Assembly: GCF_004342225.1 (NCBI RefSeq)
Contig: NZ_SMAR01000001.1
Span: 62,001-126,000, forward strand
Source: Martelella mediterranea
Lineage (GTDB): Bacteria > Pseudomonadota > Alphaproteobacteria > Rhizobiales > Rhizobiaceae
Length of the DNA: 64,000 nucleotides
Direction: 5' to 3'
Of the stretch, positions 52,562 to 62,817 are shown piece by piece. The stretch's first letter is position 1. Each line of letters begins with the position of its first letter. The notes below the pieces were generated by a model that saw only the letters and a list, made by a program, of their open reading frames with translations, searched no databases and was not told where the DNA came from. A program made the position numbers and the translations under genes.

Positions 52562-54343
52562 ATGATTTCGAAGAAGATCTTTATCTCGGTTGTCTATTTC
52601 AAGCCCGCGCCATTGGTCCAAACGGAATACCTCAACCCTGTGCAGGCCGGCAAAGCGCTTGGCCGCTATGACGTTGAAGGTGCGATTGGTGATGATAACG
52701 GGAAAAATATCTCGGAAAAGAATGTCAGCTGGAACGAACTGACGGCTCTCTACTGGATGCGTCATAACGTTGACGCGGACTATTACGGCCTGATGCATTA
52801 TCGCAGGCTCATGGTTTTTGCCGAGAAAAAGCCGAAAGCCGTTACATTTTCAGATATTACCGAGCGTGAATTTGAGCGATACGGCTGGAACGACGCGCTG
52901 ATCGAAAAGGCTTGTGAAAGCGCGGACATTCTCACGCCGCCGGTTCGGGATATCTATCTGCCGGGCATGCCGGAAGTTTTGATGACGGCCGGTGAATTTT
53001 ACGCGCATCAGCATCATAGCCGGGATATGGATATTCTGGAGGCGGTCGTCAAAGAGCGTTCGCCGGAAATCTATCCCTATTTTGTCGATATGCTGGTGGG
53101 GCGGAAGATTTTCTTCAACAGCATCACGGTTATGCGAAAGCCCTTCTTTGAAGAATACAGCGACTGGCTTTTTGATATTCTGGAAGAGGTGGAGAAGCGG
53201 AGCGACACAAGCGACTACGACAGTTATCAGTCACGTATCTGGGGTTTTTTGGCCGAGTATCTTGCAAATGTTTACGTCTCTTATGCCAAGTTCGTCCACG
53301 GAGCAAAGGTGCGTGAATGCCCTTTGACATGGGGTGTAAGGCAAAGGCCAGCGGTTGCTCCCGAGACCGTCTTGTCTCAGGCGCGGACGAAAGCTGAGAG
53401 CAAGCGCGTCGCAAAAGTAATTGATGAAAACGACGGAATTAATGTGGTTCTGGCCGTTGATGACAACTACATTCCGCATGCGTCTGTCACAATACTTTCT
53501 GCGATTCGGACCTCATCGACGCCCAATCAGCTTCGTTTTTTCATATTAAATGGCCGGAGTGTTTCAGGCGACAACCGCACGAAGCTTAAAAAGCTGGCTG
53601 AAAATGAAGGGGCAAGGCTAACCTTCCTTGATATTGACGACCGTGACCTCCGTTGGCTGCCGTTGAACCGGGACTATATTTCGATCGCAACCTATTACCG
53701 GCTTGTGATGCATGCCTATCTTCCCGAAACGGTCAAAAAGGCTATTTATCTTGATGCCGATACGATCGTTATCGATCCTATCGAAGAACTCTGGTCCACC
53801 AGTATGGACGGGCATCCTGTTGCCGGTGCTCCCGATGATGCGGGCTTTCTGCAGGCAAGACGGCTTCAGCTGACGAGCCACCACCGCTATTTCAATGCCG
53901 GAATTATGCTTTTCGATATCGCGAAGTTCAGGGCTATGGATCTTCAGAACGAGATCATTTCGGCGTTCAGAAAGCACGGAGCCTATATCGTCTCACAGGA
54001 TCAGGATATTCTGAATATTCTGTTTGAGCAGAACACGAAGATGCTGCATCTGCGCTGGAATGCCGGGTCGCGGATTTATCGGGCCAACCCGCTTGAGCCG
54101 TCTTACGATGAGCAGGAAGCATTTGAGGCGGCCAGCGATCCGGCGATTGTGCATTTCACCGACAAGCGCAAGCCGTGGCATCTGAAATGCACACATCCCT
54201 TGACCGAGCTATACTGGGACTACCGGAATGAAACGCCATGGGCCGAGACCCAGGCCGAACGCGTAAAACGCAAGACTGTATACTGGCTTCGCCGCCATCT
54301 GCGCGCCCGCGACCGGCGGTTTGACAGCAAGCTCGGGCGGTAG
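52562..54343 (+). CDS. DUF4422 - GT8 two-domain glycosyltransferase
   Basis: This encodes 593 residues in two parts. Residues about 5-250 are a DUF4422 domain, recognised by ADYYGLMHYRRLMVFAEKKP and the earlier NVSWNELTALYWMRHN. Residues about 290-565 are a GT8 glycosyltransferase: the start INVVLAVDDNYIPHASVTIL, the metal-binding DxD in KKAIYLDADTIVIDPIEELW, HHRYFNAGIMLFDIAKFR and a KPW motif in VHFTDKRKPWHLK. There are no membrane segments, so it is cytoplasmic and probably adds a hexose to a cell-surface glycan such as LPS core or exopolysaccharide. It stands alone, with no glycan genes nearby. DUF4422 is thought to be a glycosyltransferase domain too, so it may carry two activities. Confidence 0.85.
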   Translation: MISKKIFISVVYFKPAPLVQTEYLNPVQAGKALGRYDVEGAIGDDNGKNISEKNVSWNELTALYWMRHNVDADYYGLMHYRRLMVFAEKKPKAVTFSDITEREFERYGWNDALIEKACESADILTPPVRDIYLPGMPEVLMTAGEFYAHQHHSRDMDILEAVVKERSPEIYPYFVDMLVGRKIFFNSITVMRKPFFEEYSDWLFDILEEVEKRSDTSDYDSYQSRIWGFLAEYLANVYVSYAKFVHGAKVRECPLTWGVRQRPAVAPETVLSQARTKAESKRVAKVIDENDGINVVLAVDDNYIPHASVTILSAIRTSSTPNQLRFFILNGRSVSGDNRTKLKKLAENEGARLTFLDIDDRDLRWLPLNRDYISIATYYRLVMHAYLPETVKKAIYLDADTIVIDPIEELWSTSMDGHPVAGAPDDAGFLQARRLQLTSHHRYFNAGIMLFDIAKFRAMDLQNEIISAFRKHGAYIVSQDQDILNILFEQNTKMLHLRWNAGSRIYRANPLEPSYDEQEAFEAASDPAIVHFTDKRKPWHLKCTHPLTELYWDYRNETPWAETQAERVKRKTVYWLRRHLRARDRRFDSKLGR

Positions 54344-57984: not shown

Positions 57985-59373
57985 TTATTTCGCCAGCGCA
58001 TTCATGATGCGAATCCACGAGCGAATGCCCTTGTGGAAAGAGTTCATCTCATATTTTTCGTTCGGCGAATGAATCCGGTCATCATTCAGGCCGAAGCCAA
58101 CCAGAAGCGAATCCATGCCAAGTTTTGACTGAAAATCGCCCACGATCGGGATCGAGCCACCCATGCCGATGACAACAGCCGGTTTGGGCCATTCGTCGCT
58201 GAGTGCCCCTTGAGCCTTTTTCAGGAAGGGTGCGTTGTAATCAAGCTGAATGGCGGGTGAGCCGCCATGGGGGTGGAAGTCTACCTTGCAGTCGTCCGGC
58301 AGTTTGGACTGAACATAGGCCCGGAAATTTTCGCGGATTTTCGCCGGATCCTGCTTGCCCACAAGACGGAATGAAACCTTTGCTGAAGCCTGAGCGGCGA
58401 TCACGGTCTTGAAGCCGTCGCCAGTGTAGCCCCCGGCGACGCCGTTTACTTCTGCTGTCGGACGTGCCCAGGTCAGTTCCAATGCCGAATAACCTTTTTC
58501 GCCGGCAGGCACGGAAAGTCCGATTTCGCCCAGAAAACGCTCATCGGTTTCACCAAGCGCTTCCCATGTTTTCTTCACGTCTTCCGGCGTTTCTTCAACA
58601 CCGTCATAAAAACCGGGCAGTGTCACACGGCCGTTTTCGTCATGCAGACCAGCCAGAATGTCGGCCAGAATGTGAATCGGGTTGGCCGCAGCACCCCCGA
58701 AGAAGCCTGAATGCAGGTCGCGGTCTGCAGCCGTGATGACCACTTCATCGCCAACGAGGCCGCGTAGTGTCGCTGCAATTGCAGGCGTTTCACGATCCCA
58801 CATGCCGGTGTCGCAAACCAGGGCAAAGTCGGCTTTTACGAGGTCTCCATGCTCTTCCAAAAAGGCTGGCAGCGAGGGGGAGCCGGATTCTTCCTCACCT
58901 TCAAACATGATGGTGATTTTCAAAGGCAGCTCGCCTTCTTCTTCGCGATAGGCTCTGCAGGCTTGCAAAAAGGTCATCAACTGGCCCTTGTCATCGGAAG
59001 AGCCGCGCCCGGTTATGATCTTGCGGCCTTGACCCATATCCTTGATTTTCGGATCGAAAGGCTCGTCATCCCACAGGTTCAGGGGATCCACTGGCTGAAC
59101 GTCATAGTGGCCATAAAACAGCACATGCGGCGCATTTTCCGGCGCATTTTCGCTGGTGGCAACGATGATCGGATGCCCCTTTGTTTTATGTGCTGTTGCC
59201 ATGAAGCCCAGTGTCTTCAACTCATCGACCAGCCAGTTTGCAGCGGCGGTGCAGTCCTTCTTGTATGCCGGATCGGTCGAGATCGACGGTATGCGAAGGA
59301 GGTCAAAAAGCTTATCCAGACTGGAAGGAAGGTTGTCGTCGGCGCGTTTTAAAAGCGCATTCAGGTCGCTCAT
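57985..59373 (-). CDS. M20 family dipeptidase
   Basis: This zinc peptidase has 462 residues from MSDLNALLKRADDNLPSSLD, set by GAGG seven bases upstream; an earlier in-frame ATG would add a hydrophobic segment unlikely to be real. Metal ligands are in HVLFYGHYDVQPVDPLNLWD, GRGSSDDKGQLMTFLQACRA and IMFEGEEESGSPSLPAFLEE. The dimerisation/lid domain contains GDEVVITAADRDLHSGFFGG. The last His ligand region is NEKYEMNSFHKGIRSW. No signal peptide: cytoplasmic peptide or carnosine-like turnover. Confidence 0.92.
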   Translation of the reverse strand: MSDLNALLKRADDNLPSSLDKLFDLLRIPSISTDPAYKKDCTAAANWLVDELKTLGFMATAHKTKGHPIIVATSENAPENAPHVLFYGHYDVQPVDPLNLWDDEPFDPKIKDMGQGRKIITGRGSSDDKGQLMTFLQACRAYREEEGELPLKITIMFEGEEESGSPSLPAFLEEHGDLVKADFALVCDTGMWDRETPAIAATLRGLVGDEVVITAADRDLHSGFFGGAAANPIHILADILAGLHDENGRVTLPGFYDGVEETPEDVKKTWEALGETDERFLGEIGLSVPAGEKGYSALELTWARPTAEVNGVAGGYTGDGFKTVIAAQASAKVSFRLVGKQDPAKIRENFRAYVQSKLPDDCKVDFHPHGGSPAIQLDYNAPFLKKAQGALSDEWPKPAVVIGMGGSIPIVGDFQSKLGMDSLLVGFGLNDDRIHSPNEKYEMNSFHKGIRSWIRIMNALAK

Positions 59374-59504
59374 CGTAAACCTCGATCTAAGTGCAATAAA
59401 GAAAGCTATAACTGCGGCAACATAGGCCAAGCGCTACCGGAATGAAACGGTGGCATGTTGTCAGGCATTAAAGAATTATTTCTGATCTTTTTGGGAGATT
59501 TGGT

Positions 59505-59640
59505 CAAAATATAACCGCCATGGCCTGGAGGGGGGCGGGCCATGGCGGTACTTTAGTGGACAAAGGCCGGAGAGGGGGGATGGAGCCTTTGTCCTTTTGT
59601 CTGATGAGGCGGGGGACGAGCCTCTATCAGGCATCGGCGT
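59505..59640 (-). ncRNA. Candidate small RNA with three C-rich-loop hairpins
   Basis: Read on the minus strand, three stem-loops follow each other. First: 59630-59620 pairs with 59610-59601 (one bulge). Second: GGACAAAGGC pairs with GCCTTTGTCC (59594-59585 with 59567-59558, 10 bp). Third: ACCGCCATGGCC pairs with GGCCATGGCGGT (59549-59538 with 59525-59514, 12 bp), followed by TTATATTTT, a terminator-like tail. All three loops are runs of C with CCCTCC or similar, complementary to Shine-Dalgarno sequences. This matches alphaproteobacterial CCUCC-loop RNAs (the alpha-r14/CcsR type). A CTTGAA -35-like element lies upstream on the minus strand (about 59690). The exact ends are uncertain. The rest of 59374-59835 shows no gene. 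Confidence 0.65.
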
Positions 59641-59835
59641 TTTCGTGCGCCGTTGATTTGTATTTGTACTTCGAAATGTGTCGATTCAAGGGAAACGCAG
59701 CTGCGTTTCGTTACAAATCGGTAATAAACTCATGCTTTGTCGCTTTTTTCTGCGATTTCCGGTTTTGACGCGCATCAAAATGGACATGACGGTGATATCA
59801 AAGCTTTGTGATGGACGTTTTCGGGCGCTCGGGTT

Positions 59836-62817
59836 ATGCCTTCTGCCATGAAAAAAGACGACCACATTTTCCTGATCGACGGCTCGGGCTTCATTTTCCG
59901 CGCCTTTCATGCGTTGCCGCCTTTAACGCGCAAATCCGACGGCTTGCCGGTTGGTGCGGTTTCGGGTTTCTGCAATATGCTCTGGAAGCTTTTGACACAG
60001 GCGCGCGATACATCTGTGGGCGTAACGCCGACACATCTGGCTGTGATCTTTGATTTCTCATCGAAGACTTTCCGCAAGGAGATCTACCCCGAATATAAGG
60101 CGCATCGTCCACCGCCGCCGGAAGATCTGGTGCCGCAGTTCGCGCTGATTCGCGAGGCAACGCGGGCATTCAATCTACCCTGTATCGAGATGGAAGGTTA
60201 TGAGGCCGACGATATTATCGCGACCTATGCTGATCTGGCGGTGAAAGCCGGCGCTGAAGCAACCATCATTTCTTCTGACAAGGATCTGATGCAGCTGGTT
60301 GGGCCAAAGGTCCATATGTATGACGGCATGAAAGACCGACAGATCGGTGTTGCTGAAGTCATCGAGAAATGGGGCGTGCCACCGGAAAAGATGATCGATC
60401 TTCAGTCGTTGACCGGCGATTCAGTGGACAATGTTCCCGGCGTTCCGGGCATTGGGCCGAAAACGGCGGCGACACTGCTTGAAGAGTTTGGCGATCTCGA
60501 CACACTTCTGGAGAAGGCCGAGACGATAAAGCAGAAGAAACGACGCGAGAATATCGTGGCTAACAAGGATCTGGTGAAGGTTTCGCGTGAACTGGTGACG
60601 CTGAAGCGCGATTGCCCGGTTGAACTGGATCTCGATTCGCTGGCACTGGATGATCAGGATGGTCCGAAGCTGGTCGCATTTTTGAAGGCGATGAGTTTCA
60701 ATTCGCTGACGCGCCGTGTTGCGGAGGCGACGGGTACGGAAGCATCTGAGATTGAACCGGCAGATGTCAGCGTTGAATGGGGCGCGGATGCGCATGGCCC
60801 CGATCTCGATACCGGCGATGCAGATACCGAAGCATCATCTGCATCCGCGCCAAAAGCGAATGAGCCCAGCTTAAGCGGAGAAGCGACCGCGGCGGCGCTC
60901 GCCCAAGCGCGGGCTGAGCGTTTTTCCTCGCTGCCGATTGATAACAAGGCCTATGTGACCATTCGCGATCTCGATACGCTGGCAGCCTGGGTTGATGCAG
61001 CCCGCGATAAGGGATTGTGTGCGTTTGACACTGAGACCACATCTCTGGATGCGATGCAGGCAGAACTCGTCGGTTTTTCACTCGCGCTTTATGATGAAGA
61101 CGCTGAAGACGACAAGCAGGTCATTCGCGCTGCCTATATTCCTCTGGCGCACAAAAGCGGACAAGGCGATCTTCTCGGTGGCGGGCTGGCAGAAGGACAG
61201 ATCCCGTTTGACGATGCACTGGCGACGCTAAAAGAGCTGCTTGAAGATGAGGCTGTTCTCAAGGTCGCGCAGAACCTCAAATATGATTATCTCGTCATGC
61301 TGCGTTATGGCATTGCCGTGAAAGCCTTCGATGACACGATGCTTCTGTCTTATGTGCTGGATTCCGGCATGGGCGGTCATGGCATGGATGCGCTTTCGGA
61401 AAAATGGCTGGGTCACAAGCCGATTCCCTACAAGGAGGTCGCCGGTTCCGGAAAGTCGATGATCACATTCGATTATGTCGATATCGACCGCGCCACCGCT
61501 TATGCGGCAGAGGATGCCGATGTCACCCTGCGCCTTTGGCTGGTGCTGAAGCCACGGCTGATAGCAGAACGTGTGGCCACGGTTTATGAGCGGCTGGAAC
61601 GGCCCTTACTTCCGGTTCTGGCGCGCATGGAAGAGCGTGGAATATCCGTCGACCGTCAGATTTTGTCCCGGCTTTCCGGCGAGCTGGCGCAGCGCGCCGC
61701 CGCTTATGAAGACGAGATTTATGAGCTGGCGGACGAGAAATTCAATATCGGCTCGCCCAAGCAGCTGGGCGAAATCCTGTTCGGCAAGATGGGTTTGCCC
61801 GGAGGCAAGAAAACCAAGAGCGGACAGTGGTCAACATCGGTGCAGGTGCTGGATGATCTGGCGGCTGAAGGACATCCGCTGCCCTCCAAGATCGTTGAAT
61901 GGCGTCAGGTCTCGAAGCTGAAGTCAACTTATACGGATGCGTTGCCGGGCTATATTCATCCTGAGGACAAGCGGGTTCATACATCTTACTCGCTGGCCGC
62001 GACCACGACAGGGCGTCTGTCTTCATCGGAGCCGAACCTTCAGAATATTCCGGTGCGTACAGCCGATGGTCGCAAGATCAGAACCGCCTTTGTCGCCAAC
62101 AAGGGCCACAAGCTGCTATCGGCTGACTACAGCCAGATCGAACTGCGCGTTCTGGCCCATGTTGCCGATATCGCTCAACTGAAACAGGCGTTCGCCGATG
62201 GGATCGACATTCATGCGATGACAGCTTCGGAAATGTTCGGCGTGCCGGTGGAAGGCATGCCCGGTGAGGTGCGCCGCCGTGCCAAGGCGATCAACTTTGG
62301 CATCATTTACGGTATTTCCGCATTCGGGCTTGCCAATCAGCTTGGTATCGAACGTTCAGAAGCAAGCGAATATATCAAACGCTATTTCGAGCGCTTTCCA
62401 GGTATCAAGGACTATATGGAAGCCACGAAGGCGCAGGCCCGCGATCATGGTTTCGTCGAGACTATTTTTGGGCGTCGCATCCATTATCCGGAGATCAGGT
62501 CATCCAATCATCAGGTGCGCAGCTTCAATGAGCGTGCGGCAATCAATGCGCCAATTCAGGGCTCGGCGGCAGATGTGATCCGCCGCGCCATGATCCGTGT
62601 GGAGCCGGCGCTTGTTGAGGCAGGCCTCGGCGATCAGGTCAAGATGTTGCTACAGGTGCATGACGAACTGATTTTCGAAATTGAAGATGCCGCTGTCGAT
62701 CAGGCCAGGGATCTGATCGTCTCCGTGATGGAGAATGCGTCGATGCCTGCTGTTTCCATGGCCGTGCCGCTCCAGGTCGATGCCCGCGCTGCACTGAACT
62801 GGGACGAGGCCCACTAG
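59836..62817 (+). CDS. polA: DNA polymerase I
   Basis: This encodes 993 residues, full length, and all three domains seem active. The 5'-3' exonuclease comes first (FLIDGSGFIFRAFHALPPLT; SSDKDLMQLVGPKVHMYDGM; GDSVDNVPGVPGIGPKTAAT). The 3'-5' proofreading domain has its acidic residues (CAFDTETTSLDAMQAELVGF, FDDTMLLSYVLDSG, YAAEDADVTLRL). The polymerase has LLSADYSQIELRVLAHVADI, RRRAKAINFGIIYGISAFGL and LLQVHDELIFEIEDAAV. The start is at the first ATG of the frame or at MKKDDHI four codons later. It fills gaps in repair and removes Okazaki primers. An acidic linker of about 60 residues follows the first domain. Confidence 0.97.
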   Translation: MPSAMKKDDHIFLIDGSGFIFRAFHALPPLTRKSDGLPVGAVSGFCNMLWKLLTQARDTSVGVTPTHLAVIFDFSSKTFRKEIYPEYKAHRPPPPEDLVPQFALIREATRAFNLPCIEMEGYEADDIIATYADLAVKAGAEATIISSDKDLMQLVGPKVHMYDGMKDRQIGVAEVIEKWGVPPEKMIDLQSLTGDSVDNVPGVPGIGPKTAATLLEEFGDLDTLLEKAETIKQKKRRENIVANKDLVKVSRELVTLKRDCPVELDLDSLALDDQDGPKLVAFLKAMSFNSLTRRVAEATGTEASEIEPADVSVEWGADAHGPDLDTGDADTEASSASAPKANEPSLSGEATAAALAQARAERFSSLPIDNKAYVTIRDLDTLAAWVDAARDKGLCAFDTETTSLDAMQAELVGFSLALYDEDAEDDKQVIRAAYIPLAHKSGQGDLLGGGLAEGQIPFDDALATLKELLEDEAVLKVAQNLKYDYLVMLRYGIAVKAFDDTMLLSYVLDSGMGGHGMDALSEKWLGHKPIPYKEVAGSGKSMITFDYVDIDRATAYAAEDADVTLRLWLVLKPRLIAERVATVYERLERPLLPVLARMEERGISVDRQILSRLSGELAQRAAAYEDEIYELADEKFNIGSPKQLGEILFGKMGLPGGKKTKSGQWSTSVQVLDDLAAEGHPLPSKIVEWRQVSKLKSTYTDALPGYIHPEDKRVHTSYSLAATTTGRLSSSEPNLQNIPVRTADGRKIRTAFVANKGHKLLSADYSQIELRVLAHVADIAQLKQAFADGIDIHAMTASEMFGVPVEGMPGEVRRRAKAINFGIIYGISAFGLANQLGIERSEASEYIKRYFERFPGIKDYMEATKAQARDHGFVETIFGRRIHYPEIRSSNHQVRSFNERAAINAPIQGSAADVIRRAMIRVEPALVEAGLGDQVKMLLQVHDELIFEIEDAAVDQARDLIVSVMENASMPAVSMAVPLQVDARAALNWDEAH

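Follow-up and report, generated by a model that had tools for sequence, protein, structure and literature searches.

The hairpin element between the polA and M20 family peptidase genes of the window (the whole 64,000-nucleotide stretch that was analyzed) is, almost beyond doubt, the Martelella ortholog of the small RNA ar7 (SmrC7/sra03/SmelC023). When the whole window was scanned with covariance models, two Rfam matches above cut-off were observed, namely one tRNA and a match to RF02342 (ar7) at 59655-59509 on the minus strand, with 80.9 bits against a cut-off of 60 and an E-value of 6.8e-14. This match covers the full length of the model (positions 1-145 of 145) and places the ar7 small RNA gene at 59509-59655 (minus strand), with its 5′ end at 59655. 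An RF02342 search of the genome returned the window copy as the only match. The element combines a full-length score of at least 60 bits, an adjoining polA gene and conserved middle loops on covarying stems. A sequence-only reading of this DNA had described an unannotated small RNA; this was not borne out, as the element belongs to a catalogued Rfam family, RF02342. The letters alone nevertheless sufficed to pick out a genuine, conserved small RNA, whose Rfam family includes a member studied in S. meliloti. The window copy, with its real and conserved hairpins, is an ordinary member of this known family. The structure, covariation and locus of ar7 are not new, because they have been reported for the S. 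meliloti counterpart family (PMC2245857, PMC2780559 and PMC3927594).

When the minus strand of positions 59485-59660 (176 bases) was folded, an energy of -65.4 kcal/mol was obtained, compared with a mean of -38.2 (sd 3.5) for shuffled sequences (z -7.8), and none of 200 shuffles matched the real value. Thus, the stems are indeed unlikely to arise by chance, as had been claimed. All three back-to-back stems announced between the M20 gene and polA (given as 12, 10 and about 10 bp) are present on the minus strand. Hairpin 1 (59601-59630) consists of two 5-bp runs with a bulge and carries the loop GUCCCCCGCC. Hairpin 2 (59558-59594) has an 11-bp stem around a 15-base loop containing CCCCUCUCC. Hairpin 3 (59514-59549), the last one, has the perfect 12-bp stem (59514-59525 with 59538-59549) and a CCUCC loop, and is terminator-like. 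The U-rich stretch reported after the last stem was also found, and reads as an interrupted U tract (TATATTTTG, 59505-59513, minus strand) 3′ of hairpin 3. A fourth hairpin was overlooked in the count of three: the fold contains a 5′ hairpin at 59635-59652 (minus strand, 5 bp, variable loop), which is unpaired in the Rfam model, and therefore the element extends to 59655.

Two alignments were used for covariation analysis. The first was sequence-based (30 family members, 28 distinct) and was evaluated against a 35-pair structure including the 5′ hairpin. It contained 93.2% standard pairs, and 27 of the 35 pairs had changed on both sides; none of 500 shuffles was as high on any measure, and structures slid along the alignment paired at 26-51%. 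The second comprised 76 matches from 77 loci (73 distinct; locus L030 fell below the threshold), for which loop sequence was not a selection criterion. Here both-side changes were seen in 31 of the 35 pairs, with 95.8% of cells paired; this alignment was fitted to the ar7 model and leans towards it. The sequence-only reading had proposed a search for compensatory changes, with unconserved stems counting as its refutation. This comparison was run and passed in both data sets (27/35 pairs with 28 distinct sequences, 31/35 with 73), and its claim of a minus-strand small RNA with conserved stems is supported by the covariation together with the RF02342 match. In the 5′ hairpin, both-side changes were observed in 4 of 5 pairs with 92.1% of cells paired (73 distinct sequences, model-fitted alignment), and in 2 of 5 pairs with 90.1% of cells paired in the 28-sequence alignment. 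The Rfam ar7 model leaves this 5′ part unpaired, and a covarying hairpin is present there in most members.

Chance hairpins or back-to-back intrinsic terminators, for which the terminator-like last stem could be cited, are refuted by the z-score of -7.8, by covariation that no shuffle out of 500 reached and by the RF02342 match, and we regard their probability as negligible. A plus-strand gene for a small protein (59520-59768, 82 codons) is also very improbable. An open frame is present, and overlapping predicted peptides have been reported in Brucellaceae (PMC3927594), but the frame is 44, 67 and 28 codons long in three Martelella relatives sharing its start, and the pattern of base-pair exchanges is of the RNA type. 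This comparison covered 12 Martelella loci, of which the start was matched in those three; the other nine, including that of the window genome, hit a different CCGCCATGG elsewhere in the locus, which makes this a small sample.

The three loops of the window element are GUCCCCCGCC (loop 1), CCCCCCUCUCC (loop 2) and CCCCCCUCC (loop 3). It had been claimed that every loop is C-rich, complementary to ribosome binding sites and of the same composition. All three are C-rich, and the complementarity stands for loops 2 and 3, which look anti-Shine-Dalgarno in sequence. It does not stand for loop 1, which complements GGCGGGGGAC, a sequence that is not a Shine-Dalgarno. CCUCC occurs in loop 3 only; loop 2 has CCCCUCUCC and loop 1 has GUCCCCCGCC. 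Among the 73 distinct ar7 sequences, UCCCCCG was found in loop 1 of 72, CCCCUCUCC in loop 2 of 70 and CCUCC in loop 3 of 67 (loci selected by loop pattern were excluded from these counts), and none of the loop 1-3 motifs was found in the 5′ hairpin loop. Each loop retains its own motif while the stem pairs vary. Mean column identity in the same 73 sequences was 0.82 for loops 1-3 and 0.79 for the stems, with 0.99-1.0 in the loop 1 core. As the two means are nearly equal, the contrast sits in the motifs and the paired exchanges and not in the average. The possible function is sharpened by these results, in that two loops resemble ribosome-site seeds and the third does not.

When RF02342 was searched at an E-value of at most 0.001, 32 of 61 relatives matched. 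All of these are among the 37 relatives in the same family, and the 24 that belong to other families within the order gave no match; 26 of the 32 were above the ar7 cut-off. Within the family, 206 of 247 genomes had an ar7 match (170 above cut-off). Both searches applied stricter filters under which some weak matches were lost. Among loci collected by loop pattern, at least 86 of 118 had an ar7 match of at least 61.9 bits among the matches listed; L056 (35.2 bits) was left out, and many of the remaining loci are pattern matches in distant bacteria.

The neighbours of the element in the window are polA (59836-62817, plus strand; Pfam DNA_pol_A and exonuclease domains), which is divergent, and the M20 family peptidase gene (57985-59373, minus strand; Pfam Peptidase_M20; start codon of our own choice), which lies downstream on the same strand. 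In a sample of 162 ar7 loci, with some genomes represented twice, a divergent polA gene precedes ar7 in 123 of the 135 loci where 700 or more bases were available, and a co-oriented M20 gene follows it in 112 of the 137 where 1200 or more were available. The latter frequency, like the interrupted U tract in the window genome, would suit a 5′ leader or attenuator of the M20 gene, which begins 135 bases downstream on the same strand. We consider such a leader improbable: the M20 start is about 750 bases or more from the RNA start in many Rhizobium, Agrobacterium and Sinorhizobium loci, a MarR-type gene reportedly adjoins the RNA in Rhizobiaceae (PMC3927594), and a discrete transcript of 148-150 bases has been reported in S. 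meliloti (PMC2780559). Elsewhere in the window, a 593-codon frame (52562-54343) apparently consists of two joined glycosyltransferase-type parts, as judged from its translation.

The S. meliloti counterpart has been described repeatedly. As sra03, it was reported from the polA-Y02851 intergenic region by northern blots with a stated size of 120 bases, with three long hairpins, a strictly conserved central 15-base loop and a possible target in the zapA operon (PMC2245857). As SmrC7, it had its start and processing sites mapped, giving the 148-150-base transcript and a 106-base processed form, and was about 13-fold up in nodules (PMC2780559). The same transcript is listed again in PMC2573895 and PMC2873474, and Smr7C is named among the RNAs not discovered in a survey of M. 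huakuii 7653R (PMC5596092). The SmelC023 family, as reported in 2011, had 29 relatives, four hairpins, two highly conserved middle loops and stem base-pair exchanges, and adjoined polA except in one A. tumefaciens case, with the MarR-type gene adjacent in Rhizobiaceae; the anti-Shine-Dalgarno label was given there to SmelA075 and SmelA099 and not to SmelC023 (PMC3927594). No anti-Shine-Dalgarno reading of ar7 was found in our literature search, the cuckoo RNA paper (PMC4615179) and the paper defining the ar families lying outside it. A term search of PMC9751625 and PMC3616915 gave no mention of ar7. The search likewise returned neither a sub-cut-off match of the ar14 model to ar7 nor a near-unique promoter palindrome at two spacings.

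Upstream of the RNA start, a -10-like element (TACAAAT, 59662-59668, minus strand) and a -35 element (CTTGAA, 59685-59690, minus strand) were observed, followed by a palindrome, TTACCGATTTGTAA (59711-59724), which is presumed to be an operator and is the only exact TTACNNATTTGTAA site in the genome. The family pattern of the -10 region is roughly CCCAWWT (letter counts in 69 promoters). CTTGA, which is conserved in the upstream regions, was present at -50 to -28 in 71 of 75 distinct ones and exactly at -35 in 66, compared with 3.3% of random stretches from the same loci. TTAC-N6-GTAA was present in 66 of the 75 (6.8% of such random stretches). In the 66 regions with both, the distance from the start of the palindrome to CTTGA is either 24-26 bases (37 cases) or 34-36 bases (29 cases), with no intermediate values. 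A polA tree built quickly from 46 rows, of which 42 have a spacing state, requires a minimum of three switches; several of its forks are weak. Positions 59674-59682, between the -35 and -10 elements, are conserved too (a GCCAC.TT block in the family).

The strict form of the palindrome occurred 17 times in 13 Martelella genomes, against nine occurrences of a reversed control pattern. One strict palindrome per genome lies just upstream of ar7, and 10 of the 13 genomes have no other site; the palindrome of one genome (G002) counts as ar7-linked only if its contig is circular, as palindrome and ar7 are at opposite ends. The presumed operator is near-unique per Martelella genome, and the regulator that binds it could be sought directly through the palindrome.

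The -35 element agrees with the reported RpoH1 consensus (CTTGAA-N16-CCTATAT), while the -10 region (about CCCAWWT) agrees in part only. The S. meliloti ar7 gene is listed with RpoD and RpoH1/2 promoters (PMC7143759). Together, the CTTGAA -35, this RpoH1/2 entry and a weak -10 below a conserved palindrome suggest that ar7 transcription may be linked to stress and aided by a DNA-binding activator. That the palindrome is the putative activator site we hold to be an evenly balanced proposition. By our own count it conforms to the T-N11-A pattern of LysR sites, and its position is near that reported for LsrB on the NfeR1 promoter (-72 to -57). The regulator is left unnamed because the halves of the palindromes differ (TTAC and TGCA). 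In 2007, the promoter region of smrC7 was predicted to contain a UlaR site.

Membership in ar7, the conserved structure with its loop motifs and the conserved promoter elements are directly supported by these data. The best explanation, and in our judgement a probable one, is a free-standing trans-acting ar7 RNA with ribosome-site seeds and its own promoter. An RNA of about 147 bases would be transcribed leftward from that promoter between polA and the M20 gene and ended by the third C-loop hairpin. The stems would hold loops 2 and 3 open as independent seeds, and these may pair with purine-rich ribosome binding sites and so block the translation of several mRNAs, while some other factor is probably the pairing partner of loop 1 or the agent that processes it. 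Ribosome-site occlusion by ar7, which we favour by a little, is argued by analogy with NfeR1 (ar14) and AbcR, both of which are reported to silence mRNAs in S. meliloti by pairing with ribosome sites.

When duplex energies were calculated for 46 window genes (called roughly as the longest ATG frames), the pairing of loops 1-3 was stronger at start regions than inside genes (p 0.024, 5e-5 and 0.0016, respectively). However, permuted loops were equal to or better than the real ones at start regions in 47, 50 and 36 of 60 permutations for loops 1, 2 and 3. As loops permuted from the same letters pair equally well, the preference for start regions needs C-richness only. Perfect complements of loop 2 located 3-14 bases before an ATG amounted to 50 rows in the 13 Martelella genomes, against 19 for the reversed pattern. 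Among 30 of these 50 rows and five CGGAGAGGGG sites of the own genome, compared by eye from the first residues, no recurrent orthologous gene was observed, repeat-like sequence aside (the own genome has six such sites, the sixth being ar7 itself, and two inspected places appear twice). The zapA-operon target of 2007 was not prominent in the 13 genomes when inspected by eye, without energies.

The same RNA could also act differently, its C-rich loops titrating a protein or an RNA as a sponge, or binding G-rich sites outside ribosome binding sites. The equal performance of permuted loops points in this direction, as does the fact that loop 1 is the most fixed loop (72/73) and yet complements GGCGGGGGAC and no Shine-Dalgarno. 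SmrC7 also gave no Hfq co-purification signal in S. meliloti, which its authors read as absence or low affinity (PMC2848018). Against this, loop 3 retains CCUCC in 67 of 73 sequences, and silencing of mRNAs at ribosome binding sites has been reported for families with loops of this kind, among them NfeR1 (SmrC14), which was likewise without Hfq recovery (PMC2848018). Such a sponge-like action is considered fairly unlikely in comparison with the trans-acting RNA that carries ribosome-site seeds.

Compared with known ar7 members (RF02342; SmrC7, sra03 or SmelC023 in S. meliloti, C2 in A. tumefaciens and ReC06 in R. etli), the window element shares the full-length above-cut-off match, the polA neighbour, four hairpins, conserved loops and covarying stems, and differs in nothing essential, apart from its own interrupted U tract. 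AbcR1/2 (ar15) is similar in its reported anti-Shine-Dalgarno seeds, three stem-loops and alphaproteobacterial distribution, and unlike ar7 it is reported to bind Hfq, to have two seeds and to occupy another locus; no match to an AbcR-type family was observed in the Rfam scans of the window and of the 601-base element region. The sequence-only reading had likened the element to the CCUCC-loop RNAs ar14 and CcsR. The likeness to ar14 is real, but the family is ar7 and neither of the two. CcsR1 (RF02791) resembles ar7 in its CCUCC-type loops, and weak matches to it, far below its cut-off of 65.3 bits, were found in eight of 19 further ar7 loci (E 0.006 to 0.64); membership was rejected, as the window element had no match up to an E-value of 10.

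The ar14 model (RF02344), in contrast, matched the window element end-to-end with 42.4 bits (E 1.7e-6 in the 601-base scan; cut-off 58.8), and four other weak matches in that scan had E-values of 3.9 to 9.3. In the 19 other ar7 loci, 20 non-ar7 Rfam matches were found up to an E-value of 1, namely ar14 in eight loci (E up to 0.013), CcsR1 in eight, 6C in two, and ncS035 and BASRCI408 in one each. Conversely, the ar7 model matched two of the three ar14 copies of the same genome (G000:C8:94031, C2:144108 and C1:269537, all above cut-off) at about 31 bits. In nine loci it also matched an ar14 copy situated within a few kilobases of ar7, and three more matches of this kind are candidate ar14 copies. 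These nine loci, with ar7 and ar14 a few kb apart, belong to Agrobacterium and relatives (L097, L064, L060, L089 and five others); four of them also match ar35 and two match the C1_109596F thermometer next to ar14. Membership in ar14 was rejected, because 42.4 bits is below 58.8 and CCUCCUCCC does not occur in all three loops.

The ar14/NfeR1/cuckoo RNA is like ar7 in its three hairpins with C-rich loops, and its model aligns hairpin for hairpin. It reportedly repeats a single motif, CCUCCUCCC, in every loop and has three copies in the genome, whereas in ar7 the motif differs from loop to loop, a further hairpin lies at the 5′ end and there is a single copy; ar7 also scores below the ar14 cut-off. 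The resemblance could stem from a shared hairpin form and C-rich loops without common descent. More tentatively, and with considerable doubt, we propose that ar7 and ar14 form one superfamily. In it, ar7 would be the single-copy, polA-linked member, with three loops that have become distinct seeds, two of them anti-Shine-Dalgarno and the third not. Its regulator would recognize a strict palindrome that most Martelella genomes carry only at the ar7 promoter, where it takes either of two positions separated by roughly a helical turn.
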